A DNA stretch of 35,380 nucleotides, from assembly GCA_025060505.1 (NCBI GenBank), contig JANXBU010000017.1:1-35380 (forward strand). Direction: 5' to 3'. Both the position numbers and the translations under genes were made by a program. Source of the DNA: Candidatus Calescibacterium sp. Its GTDB lineage: Bacteria > Calescibacteriota > Calescibacteriia > Calescibacteriales > Calescibacteriaceae. Shown one piece after another: positions 1 through 8,112 of the stretch; positions within the stretch are counted from its first letter, which is position 1; each line of letters begins with the position of its first letter. The notes below the pieces were generated by a model, which was not told the DNA's origin, searched no databases, and saw only the letters and a program-made list of their open reading frames with translations.

Positions 1-145
1 ATAAAACGATCTCCTCAAGAGATCCATCGTTTTTTCTAACTAGCAATTTGAAACCTTCGCCTATGGAAGTTATGTTCTCCACTTCTACTGGTTCTGAGAA
101 ATACGTTGGCAAGTTCACTTTTTTGCCTTTAAGTTTTTCAATCAT
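1..145 (-). CDS. N-terminus of a helicase-like protein (partial, runs off left edge)
   Basis: Reading right to left from an ATG at 145 there are 48 open codons to the window edge. The peptide begins MIEKLKGKKVNLPTYFSEPV and continues with VEVENITSIGEGFKLLVRK. This resembles, from memory, the short beta-rich N-terminal segment of large SNF2/DEAD helicases of restriction and phage-defence loci, in which a PEPV-type strand precedes a G-x-G-(F/Y)-x-L-x-V-R strand. No helicase motif lies inside the window, so the family call is inference. The gene starts 29 bases after a 31-codon ORF and has no clear Shine-Dalgarno sequence. It belongs to the accessory island that also holds methylase and PLD-helicase fragments, which is part of the reason for the call. 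It could equally be another large restriction-associated protein. Confidence 0.5.
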   Translation of the reverse strand, partial: MIEKLKGKKVNLPTYFSEPVEVENITSIGEGFKLLVRKNDGSLEEIVL

Positions 146-174
146 TTCGTTCTTTCTATATTCTTTAAATTGGC

Positions 175-270
175 TTATAATTTCTTTCGTTCTTTATTCC
201 GATGGATTTTAGTCTCAAGCCATTCTTCGCCCATGCTCTCTAAGGCATTAATACAAACTTTTTCGCTCAT
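175..270 (-). CDS. Possible 31-aa small protein upstream of the helicase-like gene
   Basis: An ATG at 270 opens a 31-codon ORF ending at TAA (175-177). The peptide starts MSEKVCINALESMGEEW and is charged and lysine/arginine-rich towards the end (NKERKKL). It begins 5 bases after the stop of the methylase-tail ORF at 276-374 and ends 29 bases before the helicase-like gene, so it is placed like a gene in a minus-strand operon. I do not recognise a family. It could be a genuine small gene of the defence island, the start of a decayed larger gene, or chance. Confidence 0.3.
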   Translation of the reverse strand: MSEKVCINALESMGEEWLETKIHRNKERKKL

Positions 271-275
271 ATTAT

Positions 276-436
276 TTACACACTCATTGCTTTTTCAAGT
301 CTATTTTTTACAAGTTCTGCGACTGCTAAATAAACCTCTTTGCGCTCGTCTTCTATCTGAGCCAAAGTTATCATACTTTGTTAAATTGTAAAGTTTATAA
401 ACAAGTTGGTCAATTTGCCTTTTACATAAACCTCCA
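276..436 (-). pseudogene. Broken C-terminal tail(s) of Eco57I-like DNA methylase
   Basis: Two methylase-like tails lie in different frames on the minus strand. One frame reads KRQIDQLVYKLYNLTKYD, close to the typical end of Eco57I/type IIG adenine methylases (I-D-x-L-V-Y-x-L-Y-x-L-T). The other frame, ATG 374 to TAA 276-278, reads ERKEVYLAVAELVKNRLEKA and ends in MSV; I recognise this as the end of another N6-adenine methylase-like family. The tails overlap out of frame and no catalytic NPPY motif is present, so this is residue of deleted or fused genes. A close relative of the second tail occurs at 1569-1660. The 32-codon ORF may still be translated, but it cannot be an active enzyme. Confidence 0.5.
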
Positions 437-485
437 TAAGTGTTTGAATTAAACAAACTATTTTAGAAAAAACCTTTTAAATTTT

Positions 486-1499
486 TTATAAACTCCTCTT
501 CAGCAAATTTAAAGCAAATTTTTTCAACATTCTTTCCATTTTTTTATCTTGGTAAACTTGCAAGCTTTTGCATTCAACCCAAAATTCAACAATTGACTTT
601 TCTAACAGAAAAGATACAAGAGGAAAGGGTAAACCTAGCTTTATATACTTCTTGAGAGTATAAATAAACTCTTTGAGATCATCGTAGAATAATTCTTCCA
701 AGTAGACATAAAAGAAGAACCGATGCAAAGGGAAAGGAAACCTATCAAACGCTTCACTCAACCATGCATATCCTTGATATTCTGCTGGTTGGGATTTGAT
801 AAGGCGTTGAATTAAACGCGCCTCATAAGATTCGAACCTGTCATATGCAATCGAATTAGCCAAACTTTCTTCTATTATTCGCCCCCAAATTTTGTCATAT
901 GGAGTAATTCCACTATCCATAATAGCATGTCCAAGTTCATGATAATAAACCTTATCCAAAACAAGTTCAACTGGAATATTTTCTTTCCATGCCCAATTAA
1001 TGATGCGTTCAGGACAAAGGAATATGGCTGGACTTTCTAAATTTTGAAGAGCGCTTTTCGCATCGTCAGAACGATATTCAGTTTTACCTAAACCGATGAT
1101 GTTAGTAACATCATATGTATGAGAAAAATTTTTTATATAAACTCCAACAGCAACTACTTCTTTATAATGCTGCCAAGTTTCTTCTTCAGTTTTTTCAAGT
1201 TCCTTAAATAAATCTTTATCCTTTTCTTCATCCTTTATTCTTTCATCCTCTCTCCATTCATTTAACCGAGCACGAACTTTTTTTGGATCAAGGGCACGGC
1301 GTCGTTCAGGTGGGTAAATGGTGTCCATTTGTGCTTCGTTTACCAGGAAAACGGGAATGGAAACCGCCTTAGCTCCCATAGGTGCATTCATTCTTTCCCA
1401 AAGTTCTTTCCGAAAGAAATTTAACATGCTGCCCGCCTTACTTCCCAGATTATAAATATTGATAGGTAGCTGCGTTAAAAACTTATTATTTCCTGCCAT
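486..1499 (-). CDS. Putative zinc metallopeptidase (HELGH motif), 337 aa
   Basis: The motif VYYHELGHAIMD at residues ~184-195 is a zincin HExxH signature: H187 and H191 would bind zinc and E188 would act as catalytic base. About 20 residues later, IIEESLANSIAY (E210/E211) could give the third, glutamate ligand as in gluzincins. The N-terminal ~120 residues are charged and helical, and the C-terminus is rich in aromatics (FFFYVYLEELFYDDL). There is no signal peptide, so it should act in the cytoplasm. I do not recognise the specific family. The gene is intact, with a strong AAAGGAGGT ribosome-binding site 5 bases before the ATG. It is flanked on both sides by methylase-tail debris, so it is probably an accessory, possibly defence-associated, protein. 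Substrate and role are unknown. Confidence 0.65.
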   Translation of the reverse strand: MAGNNKFLTQLPINIYNLGSKAGSMLNFFRKELWERMNAPMGAKAVSIPVFLVNEAQMDTIYPPERRRALDPKKVRARLNEWREDERIKDEEKDKDLFKELEKTEEETWQHYKEVVAVGVYIKNFSHTYDVTNIIGLGKTEYRSDDAKSALQNLESPAIFLCPERIINWAWKENIPVELVLDKVYYHELGHAIMDSGITPYDKIWGRIIEESLANSIAYDRFESYEARLIQRLIKSQPAEYQGYAWLSEAFDRFPFPLHRFFFYVYLEELFYDDLKEFIYTLKKYIKLGLPFPLVSFLLEKSIVEFWVECKSLQVYQDKKMERMLKKFALNLLKRSL

Positions 1500-1504
1500 T
1501 TCAC

Positions 1505-1513
1505 ACCTCCTTT
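1505..1513 (-). promoter_or_regulatory. Strong Shine-Dalgarno site of the metallopeptidase gene
   Basis: The minus strand reads AAAGGAGGT, a full-length anti-16S match, 5 bases before the ATG at 1499. It fixes the start and contrasts with most genes in the window, which lack such a site. Confidence 0.8.
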
Positions 1514-1540
1514 TACGTTTCTTTTATACACCTTTGTTTT

Positions 1541-1600
1541 TTCTAATCTATTTTTCTAATCTATTTTTTTACAATTCTATTTTTTTTACAATTTCTACTA
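1541..1600. repeat. Two adjacent short tandem duplications in a decayed methylase tail
   Basis: On the plus strand the 13-mer TTCTAATCTATTT occurs twice in a row (1541-1566). It is followed by two near copies of a TTTTTTACAATTCTA-type unit. On the minus strand these are duplicated versions of the codons for V-K-N-R-L-E-K of the methylase tail, comparable with the single copy in the relative at 276-330. The duplications introduce stops and frame changes. Confidence 0.7.
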
Positions 1601-2161
1601 CTGCCAAATAAACTTCTTTTCGTTCTTATTCTCGTAAGCCAAGAGCATCAAAAACAATATCATCAAGTGCTTTTCGGTCTGGTAATGGATTCAACTCTTG
1701 TTCACGAATGGGTTTCGTGGGGTCAAATATTTTGAAGATGTAGAGTTTTGCGTGGTTAGGTTCTAAAGTTTTGCGCAATTCAATTTTTCCTTCTTTCAGA
1801 AGATTCAGAAAAAATCAATCTGCTCATATATCTCCTTTTTGTCGGTATCCGGAGAATTGAAGGCTCTTTTCAGAGATTCAAGAAACCTGTTTTTTACTTC
1901 ATCTTCTCTGATCTCAGATGAATTTTTTGTGAATTCATAAAGACCGTAAACTCCGCTATCAATATCAAGTCCAACAAGTATTTTCAAGAATTTATCTTTC
2001 ATTCTACCTTCTTCGTAGAGTTTTTTTAAGGTTTCGTAAAGTTGTTGGATACCAGAAAAGTAGAAGAAACCGACCAGAAACTTGAGCTCTGAGCTTTTTT
2101 CTATAATCTGATTTAATCTTTCTGCAAGATTCTTAGTCCCGGCTGTGTTGGTAATGAACAT
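1569..2161 (-). pseudogene. Chimeric pseudogene: PLD-nuclease/helicase N-terminus joined to methylase C-terminus
   Basis: From the ATG at 2161 the first 118 codons encode the start of a PLD-type nuclease domain as found at the front of some SNF2 helicases: SSELKFLVGFFYFSGIQQLY, later KFLKILVGLDIDSGVYGLYE. The frame stops at 1805-1807. Adding one T to the T6 run (minus strand, ~1808-1815) restores it, giving LLKEGKIELRKTLEPNHAKL and YIFK, which carries the HxK half of the PLD motif. At about 1733 the homology changes to a methylase C-terminus: PDRKALDDIVFDALGLRE, an in-frame TAA at 1626-1628, then ERKEVYLAVVEIVKK and TAA at 1569-1571. The helicase motor and the methylase catalytic core are both missing, consistent with a large internal deletion. 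The frameshift could be a sequencing error in a homopolymer, but the junction and the second stop would remain. Confidence 0.6.
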
Positions 2162-2328
2162 TTTTCACAATGTAAAAAAAGTATAATCATAAGAAATTTT
2201 TTTGGTATAAATTTCGTCTCTGGGGATCATTCAAGATACCTTTCTTTTTTCGTAGAGCATAGACTTTTGAGTACAAGAAATGAGAAAAAAAGATATTTTG
2301 CTTTGAGATTGCTATATACATTTAGTAT

Positions 2329-4932
2329 ATGCGTTTTGATAGGTTCACAGCACACGCAAGAGAGGTCATTGAGGAAGCAGGAAACGAAGCAAGGTCAAGA
2401 AACAATGGAGAGATATTCCCAGAACACGTAGCCTATGTTCTTGTTAAGGATTCAATGAAAGAGTTCATAAGCAAAATGGGCAAAAATCCCTCGTCTTTGC
2501 TCTCAAAGATTGAGTATTCAATAGCGAGATTACCGAAAATATTTGGAGAATCTGATGATGTATACATCTCTCCGCAGGCAAAGAGATTGTTTGATAGAGC
2601 AATTGATATATCAAAGGATATGGGCGACTCCTATGTTTCAACTGAGCATCTTTTTTTGGCATCAATAGAAAGCCTTCCGGATATTTTCAAGAGCGAAGGT
2701 ATTGATTTCGAATCTGTAGAAAAAGAGATACTTGAAATGAGGAAGGGAAGAAAAGTTGAAAGTCCGGAGCAGGATTTTTCTCAAAGTGTTCTTTCAAAGT
2801 ATGGAAAAGAGCTCGTTGCTCTTGCGAAAGCTGGAAAGCTTGATCCTGTTGTTGGCAGAGAAGAGGAGATAAGGCAGGTTATGGAGATACTTATGAGGAG
2901 AACGAAAAACAATCCTGTTTTGGTTGGTGATCCAGGAGTAGGAAAGACAGCAATAGTTGAAGGACTTGCACGCAGGATTGCAAATGACGATGTTCCTACA
3001 CTTCTGAGAAACAAAAAGATATTCCAGCTTGATATGTCTGCTCTTCTGGCAGGTGCCAAGTACAGAGGAGAGTTTGAAGAAAGGCTCAAAGCTGTTTTGA
3101 AGGAGATTGTTGACTCAAACGGAGAGATAATACTTTTTGTGGACGAGGTTCACACTTTGATTGGTGCTGGAAGAGCGGAGGGTCAAGCTATGGATGCTGC
3201 GAACATAATGAAGCCGGCTCTCGCAAGGGGAGAGCTTCATATGATTGGAGCTACAACTTATGATGAGTACAGAAAATACATAGAAAAAGATCCGGCTCTT
3301 GAAAGAAGGCTTCAGCCGGTCTTTGTGAGGGAGCCAACAGTAGAGGAAACAATAGCTATTTTGCGTGGAATAAAGGAAAAATACGAGGTACATCATGGTG
3401 TGAAGATCTCAGATTCAGCAATTGTTTCTGCTTCAAAACTTTCTGCAAGATACATACAAGATAGAAAGCTACCGGACAAAGCGATAGATCTGATTGATCA
3501 GGCTGCAAGCTCTCTCAGAATGGAGGTTGATAGCCTTCCTGCACCTATTTACGAGATAGAAAGAAAAATATCTGAACTTGAGATACAAAAGCAAGCTCTC
3601 TCTATGGAATCAAAAGGTGCTTCCGAAAGAGAGAGGAAAGAAATGGAAGATAAAATCTCCGATATAGATAAGAAGCTTGCGGAACTAAGAGAGAAGCTAT
3701 CTTCGCTCAAATCTAAATGGGAAAATGAAAAGAGAATCCTTGAGGAGATAAGACGATATAAAGATAAGCTCGGGGAGCTTGAACATCAGGCTCAATCTGC
3801 AAGCAGAGCAGGGGACTACGACAAAGCCGCAAGAATAATATATGGCGAGATTCCCGAGATAAAGAAAAAACTTGAACAGCTCAACGCTGAGTTTGAGAAG
3901 ATACAGGATAAACTTGTCAAAGATCAGGTCACAGAAGAAGATATTGTAAGACTTATATCAAAGAGAACAGGGATACCGATAGAAAAGTTGAAGCAGGAGG
4001 AAATACAGAAACTTGTTGAGATAGAAAAATATCTTGGAAGCAAGGTTGTTGGTCAAGACGAAGCTATAAAGCTTATTTCAAACACAATAAGGCGTGCCAG
4101 AGCTGGTTTTTCTGATCCCAGAAGACCTCTTGGTTCGTTTATGTTCTTTGGACCAACAGGAGTGGGAAAAACACAAACAGCAAAAACTCTCGCGGAGTTT
4201 CTGTTTGGCGATGAAAATGCACTGATAAGAATAGATATGTCTGAGTACATGGAAAAGCATTCTGTTGCAAAGCTGATCGGTGCTCCCCCCGGATATGTAG
4301 GATATGAAGAGGGTGGACAGCTCACAGAAGCGGTCAGAAGAAAACCGTTTTCTGTTATACTCTTTGACGAAATAGAAAAAGCTCATCCTGATGTCTTCAA
4401 TTTACTACTTCAAGTTCTTGATGACGGGAGACTCACAGACTCAAAAGGAAGAACTGTTGATTTCAGAAACACAATAATAATTATGACGTCAAACCTCGGA
4501 AGCGATATAATAATGCGTGAAGACTTTGATACTGCAAAAAGGAGAGTACAAGATCTGATCAAATCTTATTTCAGGCCAGAGTTCATAAACAGAGTAGATG
4601 AGATAGTTGTGTTCAGACCGCTTGATAAGCAAAATATCCTCAAAATAGTTGAGCTACAGCTTGTGGACATCATAAAGAGAGCATCAGAGAGAAAAATTGT
4701 TCTCAAATTCACAGATAAGCTCAAAGACTTTATATCGGAAGTTGGATATGACCCGAATTTTGGTGCAAGACCTCTTCGGAGAGCAATCCAAAAATATATA
4801 CTTGACGAGCTTTCTATGAAGTTCATCTCAGGAGAAATATCCGATGGCGAAACTGTTACTGTGGATTACGAGGATGGAAGAGTAGTTTTCAGAAAAGAAA
4901 CTGAACAGGTGAGAAAACAGAGAAGAAAATAG
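2329..4932 (+). CDS. clpB: ATP-dependent disaggregase ClpB
   Basis: This 867-residue Hsp100 AAA+ ATPase threads aggregated proteins through a hexameric ring, in cooperation with DnaK, in the cytoplasm. Visible parts: Clp N-domain (~1-145); first AAA+ module with Walker A GDPGVGKT (200-207), Walker B ILFVDE (268-273) and the ClpB-like GATTYDEYRKYIEKDPALER; a long charged coiled-coil middle domain (~400-530), whose KISDIDKKLAEL and IYGEIPEIKKKLEQL segments match ClpB rather than the shorter ClpC linker; second Walker A GPTGVGKT (608-615) with Walker B ILFDEIEKAHP (~679-689). No ClpP-binding IGF-type loop was noticed, in line with ClpB. The length is normal for the family. It starts at an ATG preceded by TATATACATTTAGTAT and no Shine-Dalgarno sequence. 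No CIRCE operator is visible upstream. It is divergent from the defence-like island and stands alone. Confidence 0.95.
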   Translation: MRFDRFTAHAREVIEEAGNEARSRNNGEIFPEHVAYVLVKDSMKEFISKMGKNPSSLLSKIEYSIARLPKIFGESDDVYISPQAKRLFDRAIDISKDMGDSYVSTEHLFLASIESLPDIFKSEGIDFESVEKEILEMRKGRKVESPEQDFSQSVLSKYGKELVALAKAGKLDPVVGREEEIRQVMEILMRRTKNNPVLVGDPGVGKTAIVEGLARRIANDDVPTLLRNKKIFQLDMSALLAGAKYRGEFEERLKAVLKEIVDSNGEIILFVDEVHTLIGAGRAEGQAMDAANIMKPALARGELHMIGATTYDEYRKYIEKDPALERRLQPVFVREPTVEETIAILRGIKEKYEVHHGVKISDSAIVSASKLSARYIQDRKLPDKAIDLIDQAASSLRMEVDSLPAPIYEIERKISELEIQKQALSMESKGASERERKEMEDKISDIDKKLAELREKLSSLKSKWENEKRILEEIRRYKDKLGELEHQAQSASRAGDYDKAARIIYGEIPEIKKKLEQLNAEFEKIQDKLVKDQVTEEDIVRLISKRTGIPIEKLKQEEIQKLVEIEKYLGSKVVGQDEAIKLISNTIRRARAGFSDPRRPLGSFMFFGPTGVGKTQTAKTLAEFLFGDENALIRIDMSEYMEKHSVAKLIGAPPGYVGYEEGGQLTEAVRRKPFSVILFDEIEKAHPDVFNLLLQVLDDGRLTDSKGRTVDFRNTIIIMTSNLGSDIIMREDFDTAKRRVQDLIKSYFRPEFINRVDEIVVFRPLDKQNILKIVELQLVDIIKRASERKIVLKFTDKLKDFISEVGYDPNFGARPLRRAIQKYILDELSMKFISGEISDGETVTVDYEDGRVVFRKETEQVRKQRRK

Positions 4933-4974: not shown

Positions 4975-5781
4975 ATGCCAGTGAGAAGGATTCTTTCTTT
5001 TTTGATTTTTTCTGCTTTGGCTGTTTATCCTTTGTCTTTGCTTTTGTTTTCGCTGTTTTCGGATTGTTCTCCAACAGAGATAGACCTTGATAGAACGCTT
5101 CTTTCTCCATCGTTAAGCTTTCCTCTTGGCACAAATGAGCTTGGCCAAAACCTTGCTTGTATGATAGGTCATGGAATCATCACATCTTTGAAGGTATCTG
5201 CTATATCTGTTCTGATTTCATTCGTTTTGGGAGGAGTTTTGGGAACGGCTGCTGGATATATGGGCGGAGCCTATGACTTTGTTATAAGTAGAATGATTGA
5301 ATTTTTCCAGGGACTTCCTGCTCTGATTTTTGTTATATTTATCGTTTCTGTCTTTGGAGGAGGAGATGATAAGATAATAATTTCTCTTTCAGCTTTTGGT
5401 TGGGTATCTTTCGCAAGAATAGCTCGTAATGAATCCGCCAGAATAAAGAACCTTGAGTTTGTCAAATCAGCTTATGTTGTTGGACTTCCTCATTCAAGAA
5501 TAATGCTGAAATACATATTCCCATATGTTTTGCCATCTCTTCTGACGCAAGCTATGTTCTCATTTTCGGCTTTTATTCTCGCAGAAGGAGGTCTTGGATT
5601 TTTGGGTCTGAGACCTGCTGAAAAAATTTCTCTTGGAAGCATAATATCAGACGGAGTTGACTTCATCCTCACAAATCCACGTTTGGTTATATTTCCTGGA
5701 CTTTGTCTTACATGTATCGCAGTTCTATCAAATATAATCGGCCAGAATCTTATAGCTGCTCAGAAAAAGTCTTTCGAATGA
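4975..5781 (+). CDS. ABC transporter permease, DppC/OppC family (orphan)
   Basis: This inner-membrane permease resembles the second permease of dipeptide/oligopeptide/nickel importers. The sequence shows an N-terminal membrane segment, the family hallmark PLGTNELGQNL (usually PLGTDxLGRD), at least five further hydrophobic segments, and the cytoplasmic EAA loop (AYVVGLPHSRIMLKYIFPYV) that contacts the ATPase. The end (GFLGLRPAEKISLGSIISDG) is also typical of DppC. About 270 residues is the normal length. I chose the ATG at 4975; an upstream TTG at 4945 would add ten residues with no ribosome-binding site. The partner permease, ATPases and binding protein are not nearby, so the substrate cannot be inferred. 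It follows clpB by about 40 bases. Confidence 0.85.
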   Translation: MPVRRILSFLIFSALAVYPLSLLLFSLFSDCSPTEIDLDRTLLSPSLSFPLGTNELGQNLACMIGHGIITSLKVSAISVLISFVLGGVLGTAAGYMGGAYDFVISRMIEFFQGLPALIFVIFIVSVFGGGDDKIIISLSAFGWVSFARIARNESARIKNLEFVKSAYVVGLPHSRIMLKYIFPYVLPSLLTQAMFSFSAFILAEGGLGFLGLRPAEKISLGSIISDGVDFILTNPRLVIFPGLCLTCIAVLSNIIGQNLIAAQKKSFE

Positions 5782-6921: not shown

Positions 6922-8112
6922 ATGGATATTGGGAAAAGCAAAAAAAATGAAAACGAAAAAAAGAACTTTGCAATTGTTCTTTCAGGCGGAGGCTCTCGTG
7001 GAGCTTATGAAGTAGGAGTTCTCAAATATCTATACACTGATTTTGTAAGAGAAACCGGTATTGTTCCTCACTTTGATATACTTTGTGGCACAAGCGTTGG
7101 AGCTATACATATTGCTTTTCTATCTTCTTTTTTAAGAAGTATTCACAACAGCATCAAAATACTTGAATCGGTATGGAGCAACCTTGAAGGAGAGAAGATT
7201 TTTCAGATAAACGTGAAGAATTTTCTTGAAGTTTTTCTGAGACCCTCGGTTGGAAAATCTCTTCTTGACACATCTCCTTTGAACATGATTATATCAAAGG
7301 GTATAAGTTGGAATTCAATAAGGGAAAATATCATTCACAAATATATAAAAGCTGTATGTGTTTTTGCAACTCAGATATCAACTGGAAAAACAGTAGCTTT
7401 CATTGATTCTGCCGAAATCGTCCCAGAGTGGAAAAAGGATCCATTTATGAACTTTGTTCAGTCTGCGATCCGTCCAGAGTATGTTCTTGCTTCTGCTGCT
7501 ATACCTATTTTGTTCCCTCCAGTCAAGATAGACGAAAGATGGTACTGCGATGGAGGTATCAGACTTAACACCCCACTGAGCCCTGCTATTCGTCTTGGTG
7601 CGGACAAAATATTTACTGTGGTTCTAAGATACTATGATCCGTCAGAGGTTCCAGAGAGAGAAAGAGTCTTTCCCAACCCTATATATCTGCTCGGTAAAAT
7701 CATGAATGCTTTATTTCTTGATCGCGTAGCCTATGATATATCAAAGCTTGAAATCATAAACGAACTACTACTTACTGCATCATATTTTGTTCCGATTGAA
7801 AAAATTAACGAAAGAATGAGAGAAGTCAGAGGTTATGATATGAAGGTTGTTGAACCGCTTGTGATAAGACCTAGCGCAGATATATCTGAATTATCTATTG
7901 AATGTGCAAAGAAATACGCAAAATTCCCAAAATCAAAGTACAAGCTTTTCATAAAAGCAATCTTGGAGTTATCACAGGGAATAGATACAGATGTTTTAAG
8001 CTATATATTGTTTGAACCAAGCTATATAAAAGAACTGATTGAGATCGGATATAATGACGCAAAGAAAAGCTCCGATATGCTATACAGATTTTTCTCCGAT
8101 CAGTACTTTTGA
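6922..8112 (+). CDS. Patatin-like phospholipase
   Basis: This is a serine acyl hydrolase of the patatin/RssA type, using a Ser-Asp dyad on phospholipids or other acyl esters. The sequence shows the oxyanion-hole loop LSGGGSRGAYEVGVL near residue 20, the nucleophile elbow GTSVG (S58) and the DGG motif in YCDGGIRLNTPL (D210). The C-terminal ~150 residues are helical and not recognised. There is no signal peptide, so it is probably cytoplasmic or peripheral on the membrane. The start is ATG at 6922 (a TTG three bases earlier is also in frame). TATAAT lies only two bases before the ATG, which is unusual: if it is the -10 box, transcription would begin inside the first codons. obgE follows after 16 bases, so the two are probably co-transcribed. 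Confidence 0.9.
   Translation: MDIGKSKKNENEKKNFAIVLSGGGSRGAYEVGVLKYLYTDFVRETGIVPHFDILCGTSVGAIHIAFLSSFLRSIHNSIKILESVWSNLEGEKIFQINVKNFLEVFLRPSVGKSLLDTSPLNMIISKGISWNSIRENIIHKYIKAVCVFATQISTGKTVAFIDSAEIVPEWKKDPFMNFVQSAIRPEYVLASAAIPILFPPVKIDERWYCDGGIRLNTPLSPAIRLGADKIFTVVLRYYDPSEVPERERVFPNPIYLLGKIMNALFLDRVAYDISKLEIINELLLTASYFVPIEKINERMREVRGYDMKVVEPLVIRPSADISELSIECAKKYAKFPKSKYKLFIKAILELSQGIDTDVLSYILFEPSYIKELIEIGYNDAKKSSDMLYRFFSDQYF

Follow-up and report, generated by a model that had tools for sequence, protein, structure and literature searches.

BREX-related Type-2 systems are described, in the passages of PMC12839542 drawn on here, as combining an HKD endoDNase and a Swi2/Snf2 helicase with an N6-MTase and DUF3780. 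Excerpts from two further sources (PMC3874152, PMC3031569) report that RM genes insert with long, variable target duplications of ~100 bp, and an extract of PMC3874165 describes an RM operon carrying an accessory anticodon nuclease, prrC. The locus analysed here lies near one edge of a 35,380-nucleotide stretch of Candidatus Calescibacterium sp. (the whole of it referred to below as the window), where a short hybrid gene on the minus strand combines pieces of a helicase and of a methylase. In all likelihood ~6 kb were lost from inside an operon of two defence-type genes, and this gene is the resulting pseudogene, most likely an ordinary deletion pseudogene of an already known kind of operon.

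The original prediction held that the gene joins a PLD nuclease front to a methylase tail, two segments that normally belong to different proteins. Both halves stand, the first being more exactly the PLD front of an SNF2 helicase. The helicase front (1731–2161, minus strand) covers the first ~144 codons of a gene for a PLD–SNF2 helicase, with its ATG at 2161, and is 53% identical to residues 22–151 of the helicase frame of a related genome, G058 (E 8.8e-34). Its open reading frame keeps an intact start codon and runs from 2161 to 1805, giving 118 aa and a stop. Among 60 related genomes, this 118-aa front found matches in eight (the window's own counted), all of them N-termini apart from itself; the best relatives are in G002 (E 8.9e-37, 56% identity), G058 (5.7e-34, 56%), G021 (8.9e-24) and G023 (1.4e-19), with weaker matches in G001, G042 and G015. 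The second half matches in seven of the 60 genomes and splits between two proteins: its residues 1–36 find the same large frames as the front, and residues 28–78 find the end of another protein. The latter segment, tail copy 1 (1572–1727, minus strand), is the C-terminal tail of an Eco57I-type N6-methylase gene and aligns with the methylase of G058 at 82% identity (E 2.7e-19), over residues 1098–1146 of 1154. A profile of this conserved tail confirms its presence in the window, with E-values of 4.2e-16 for copy 1 and 4.4e-11 for a second copy discussed below. In Pfam and NCBIfam both remnant pieces stay below the curated cut-offs, and homology was therefore taken from the relatives; judged by sequence comparison, it is far above chance for both halves.

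In those relatives the two halves correspond to separate full-length proteins encoded by neighbouring genes on one strand, as seen in G058 (L019) and G021 (L020), where the methylase of G021 is split over two overlapping frames. The G058 helicase frame (1131 aa) carries PLDc_2, SNF2-related and Helicase_C domains, its methylase (1154 aa) carries Eco57I and N6_Mtase domains, and SNF2/Helicase_C is found in the full-length relatives P0002 and P0004. The helicase part of the window stops at NHAKLYIFK and the GSSNLTKAGL... part of the relatives is gone, the two being what we take to be the halves of the PLD motif. Measured on the G058 frame, PLDc_2 spans residues 75–215, the cut falls at residue 164 and GSSN starts at 180: the PLD domain of the window is truncated ahead of its second half.

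The place of the join had been predicted at ~1733 and interpreted as a deletion junction. That interpretation stands and the position is slightly refined, since a codon-anchored DNA alignment against three helicases and five methylases shows helicase-like DNA to ~1731 and methylase-like DNA from ~1727 (junction 1727–1731, minus strand), joined in frame and with no visible microhomology. As had been proposed, NHAKLYIFK leads into PDRKALDDIVFDALGLRE on one frame-corrected chain, both lying within a single open frame (1814 to 1629, minus strand) that overlaps the 118-aa reading frame, and past the in-frame TAA at 1626–1628 the tail reads on in the same frame as ERKEVYLAVVEIVKKIEL, down to 1572. 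The two lesions foreseen in the remnant are likewise present, namely one frame change (expected near 1810 and located at about 1808–1814) and this one internal stop. Two short tandem duplications with units of 13 and 17 nt (1538–1593; Tandem Repeats Finder and a repeat search) additionally scramble the end of tail copy 1. From the start codon to 1572 the remnant measures 590 nt, with all its features on the minus strand, and the frame change, the TAA and the tandem duplications together indicate a dead gene rather than a new fusion protein.

We surveyed the spacing of the two pieces in 107 sequences, made up of the window and 106 loci, among which L023 and L049 represent one contig. The helicase front is present in 89 of these and the methylase tail in 38. 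In the 13 other loci that hold both in order on one strand, front and tail lie 6,670–7,373 nt apart, compared with ~0.6 kb in the window; the top value of 7,373 nt comes from G001 (L022), where the tail is an orphan behind another methylase, and without G001 the range is 6,670–7,108 nt. These 13 loci have no 60-mer in common with each other. In 75 of the 88 other front-bearing loci no such tail follows within the available DNA, and many of them end at contig ends or carry another methylase end. A single family containing both segments contiguously was sought in the 106 other loci and none was found; we thus reject the fusion as a normal family, as the pieces are not close together in any other locus examined. 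The missing DNA would amount to about 6 kb (6.1–6.8 kb), beginning inside the PLD domain of the helicase and ending where the final 57 methylase codons start. In the draft genome of the window (G000), the SNF2/Helicase_C core is missing (no helicase match outside 1707–2161), as is the methylase catalytic domain (matches only to residues 1098–1146 and 1126–1154 of 1154); an internal methylase segment has zero matches, and no further helicase or methylase match occurs elsewhere at E 0.001. The outer parts of two adjacent genes are joined and the inner part is absent relative to longer relatives, which is the pattern of a pseudogene by deletion. No strain of the same species with an intact operon was found, the nearest helicase being only 56% identical.

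The intact operon would have encoded the PLD–SNF2 helicase, a putative restriction effector, followed by the Eco57I-type N6-adenine methylase, with putative roles in self-protection and target recognition; such a two-gene operon is probably anti-phage, a function that we infer, together with a deletion in one step, how long exactly it was and in which order the changes took place. One illegitimate recombination would have fused the helicase, broken within its PLD domain, to the methylase's final 57 codons. The losses would comprise the PLD motif's second half, the entire helicase core and, on the methylase side, the catalytic domain together with the variable region that precedes the tail. The frame change, the internal stop and the duplication of the 3' end by slippage would have arisen with the deletion or after it.

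The remnant sits in a decayed defence-type island, together with a second methylase-tail relic read from 365 to 279. This tail copy 2 (279–365, minus strand) is an orphan that matches the G058 methylase over residues 1126–1154 (79% identity, E 1.5e-4), and it is preceded by the remnant of a TaqI_C-type methylase end (376–423, minus strand), recognised by tblastn against window positions 1–2330 (12 of 16 residues, E 5.6e-7) and by alignment to L022. Between the two tail copies lies an intact 337-aa gene with an HELGH motif (486–1499, minus strand), which has no match at curated cut-offs in Pfam or NCBIfam and none in PADLOC, and which was found in only one of seven genomes searched, its own. 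It shows no similarity to the M78 protein that occupies the same position in G003, and a viral origin was set aside, there being no relative in viral_contigs.

One possibility, which we hold to be doubtful although it would be compatible with the helicase–methylase deletion as a separate event, is that the 337-aa gene entered a methylase 3' end and duplicated the tail in doing so. The two copies flank the gene in the same orientation, 1,278 nt apart, and are 82% identical over 51 nt; at the same position in G332, an 80-nt repeat of 93% surrounds an AAA_13 gene; and long, variable target duplications have been described for RM genes in the cited portions of PMC3874152 and PMC3031569. Against it, copy 2 has higher-scoring matches among tails from other genomes, copy 1 is not one of its four best matches, and a recent duplication of the two window tails is accordingly not supported. 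Copy 2 moreover comes after the end of another methylase and so may derive from an operon of its own. The same order as in the window is seen in G001 (L022), with an orphan tail containing a TAG directly behind a TaqI_C methylase frame whose last position is 12034. No empty site is known.

We ran a 60-residue tail query against 386 genomes, calling a match short when its frame was under 150 aa, a limit set after the tables had been seen. The query gave 29 matches in 23 genomes, 12 of them short. One of these (G093) is just a frameshifted methylase, leaving 11 in eight genomes with the window's two counted; among the 11, one in G090 (114 aa) keeps ~55 residues before the tail and another in G090 runs off its contig. 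Run on the same 386 genomes, a 60-residue segment from inside the methylase matched 86 times in 72 genomes, always in frames of at least 395 aa and never with stops. Short pieces without a methylase body thus make up 11 of 29 tail matches versus 0 of 86 for the internal segment (Fisher's test 4.9e-8, where matches from the same genome are not independent and the internal segment also matches other methylase families; by genome, 8/23 versus 0/72). A profile built from 17 tails and run on 245 genomes of the phylum of G332 (some searched before) matched nine genomes and added one new short place, in G454. A further short match to the tail profile occurs on a Patescibacteria contig (L087, 8353–8445, plus strand; E 8.3e-6). 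The short tails start at varied residues, from ~7 to 41 of 60 depending on the search, and site-specific integration at one fixed crossover point is not supported.

Defence-type genes lie next to several of these short tails, the clearest case being that of G332. In G332 (L162), a methylase tail, an AAA_13 gene (PF13166, 1e-173) and an orphan tail follow one another, and the 80-nt direct repeat mentioned above (5238–5317 and 7590–7669) places methylase 3' ends on either side of the AAA_13 gene, which we take to be PrrC/RloC-like; this repeat demonstrates a genuine duplication of at least one tail. G140 has four tail copies, spaced 1,528, 6,228 and 2,115 nt and including an exact duplication of at least 300 nt, with a DUF3368-like (below cut-off)/UPF0175 pair, a DUF1016 nuclease, a DUF2851-like gene, a helicase and a Schlafen AlbA_2 gene between them. 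G090 has a tail, a MazF-type toxin gene and a tail at the contig end. In G454, a 412-aa gene without known identity (L219, 3172–4660, minus strand) lies between two tail relics, surrounded by AMP-binding, aminotransferase and M48 peptidase genes; neither the helicase front nor the methylase has a match in its 8 kb, and no direct repeat was called between the two relics. G277, G196 and G005 have single orphan tails. A stretch resembling a TaqI_C-type methylase end follows the DUF2851-like gene in L162, L167 and L169 (tblastn E 1.5e-4, 4.3e-6 and 8.9e-9, respectively).

Two other kinds of gene recur at these loci. A truncated DUF2851-like gene is found downstream of the methylase in L020 and L021 (by Pfam match) and in L162, L166, L167 and L169 (by similarity), and its start is also present at the edge of L019; the variable genes between methylase and DUF2851-like gene include M78 + DUF4411, AAA_13, Schlafen AlbA_2, DUF3800 and others unnamed. 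IS200-like (Y1_Tnp) transposase-type frames stand directly after orphan tails in L162 (7646–8323), L161 (6653–6994) and L164 (6549–6800), with a Pfam match in L162 only; the L161 frame is 57% identical to that of L162 over 99 aa, and the L164 frame is similar over just 15 residues.

On a plain reading, the orphan tails mark places in defence-type islands where genes next to the 3' ends of methylases were turned over, through deletions or replacements that spare the 3' end. A more speculative proposal, which we consider improbable as a whole, is that the methylase 3' tail serves as a portable landing strip: accessory genes would be gained and lost by recombination at the tail, giving tail–cargo–tail arrays, and this process would have left both the fused gene and copy 2 as its scars. 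The tail would often also supply the ribosome-binding site of the next gene, so that each exchange would leave a tail copy. The cargo would comprise the anticodon-nuclease-like AAA_13, Schlafen AlbA_2, the DUF1016 nuclease, the MazF-type gene, DUF3368/UPF0175 toxin–antitoxin-like pairs and the 337-aa HELGH gene. An AGGAG-type ribosome-binding sequence is found at the tail end in seven of 12 short tails, compared with five of 28 tails in frames of at least 150 aa; erosion may therefore halt at the translation start of the next gene, and these counts favour such erosion over exchange at the tail. The sequence is absent from both window copies. In the same 12 short tails, the next start codon lies within 33 nt in seven and at 73–182 nt in three (both window copies and G005), and is unassigned in two by the rule of the script. 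A recombination role of the methylase tail is possible; none of the sources returned by a limited search of the open literature, with few term sets, describes methylase tails at the borders of other genes. Among the searched genomes, the 3' ends of methylases, unlike the internal control segment, persist as short pieces near other genes, several of them defence-type, and if tail recombination rather than only slow erosion is the cause, it would offer defence islands a simple, testable route to swap cargo.

Returning to the hybrid gene itself, an assembly artefact, in which the assembler linked the helicase front of one strain to a methylase end belonging to a different copy or strain while the real operon is intact, seems quite unlikely. 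The genome is a draft (115 contigs, 86% complete), and, judged from the assembly alone, it is conceivable that 1727–1731 was wrongly joined or that the six-base run contains an indel error; in addition, the helicase or methylase genes lie at or near contig ends in three relatives of the same family (L023, L021 and L022), so the region assembles badly. However, the junction has no repeat or microhomology that could mislead an assembler, the DNA on either side has decayed independently (frame change, TAA and tandem duplications), a second decayed tail lies close by, and the rest of the assembly gives no match to this helicase or methylase. Retention of a small functional fusion, or of a translated 118-aa helicase front in a regulatory or decoy role, is highly improbable: despite the intact start codon, the open 118-aa frame and the in-frame join, the frame change parts the two halves, the TAA breaks the tail, the PLD domain is cut ahead of its second half, and the short form has no counterpart in the 106 other loci. 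The fused gene, read as an ordinary relic of a restriction-type operon, warns against annotation as a new fusion protein.

The site of the deletion remnant can be compared with relatives through the adjacent clpB, which is present in the four other genomes of the family. The operon is not beside clpB in any of these four (in G002, only ~1.6 kb are available on that side), and of six window proteins compared, ClpB alone was found in the stretches around clpB of the family genomes (again ~1.6 kb in G002). As far as these data go, the remnant appears private to this genome at this site, and because the operon is not beside clpB in the four same-family genomes, the ancestral state at the site is one we infer. 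The ClpB homologue of the window (2329–4932, plus strand) is 70–72% identical to its family relatives and scores 1185 bits, just below the NCBIfam equivalog cut-off of 1232. At the left contig edge (2–252, minus strand), an open frame shifts near 190 (MGEEWLETKI... and then RTKEIISQF...), and its second part has no Pfam match. The first part (252–168) had been suspected by eye to be DUF2851, as DUF2851-like genes follow the methylase in relatives; this was rejected, since a profile from six such genes has no window match at E 0.01. An imperfect inverted repeat surrounds the remnant (1565–1590 and 2171–2196; 21 of 26 positions pair, and none of 100 shuffles reaches that). A mobile element bounded by it was given no weight, as arm length and region were picked post hoc and, as a further ground, one arm falls in the T-rich tandem duplication. 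The 36-base junction sequence has no exact match in viral_contigs.

Overall, the closest counterparts of the remnant are the pairs of a PLD (HKD)–SNF2 helicase and an Eco57I-type N6-methylase in G058 and G021, to which the window halves are homologous in the same order and on the same strand; in contrast to these pairs, the window keeps ~144 helicase and ~52 methylase residues, with a frame change between the parts and a stop. In PADLOC, the full-length helicase gives partial matches to DrmD (2e-38) and C3a139 (HKD+Snf2; 5.6e-32) and the methylase to REase_MTase_IIG (2.4e-52), which gives the kind of system and not the exact system, whereas the window front piece (P0001) has no match. The BREX-related Type-2 systems, as far as the cited passages of PMC12839542 describe them, are alike in pairing an HKD-nuclease/Snf2 helicase with an N6-methylase. 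They differ in that neither DUF3780 nor the DUF499 ATPase of the Type-1 form was seen among the few neighbours scanned in L019 and L020, and in that the methylase here resembles Eco57I and has a variable region close to the C-terminus. Finally, the direct repeats of ~50–100 nt around an inserted gene resemble the RM insertions with long target duplications in the excerpts of PMC3874152 and PMC3031569, although in those accounts the RM genes enter a target, whereas here other genes lie between copies of the methylase's own 3' end.
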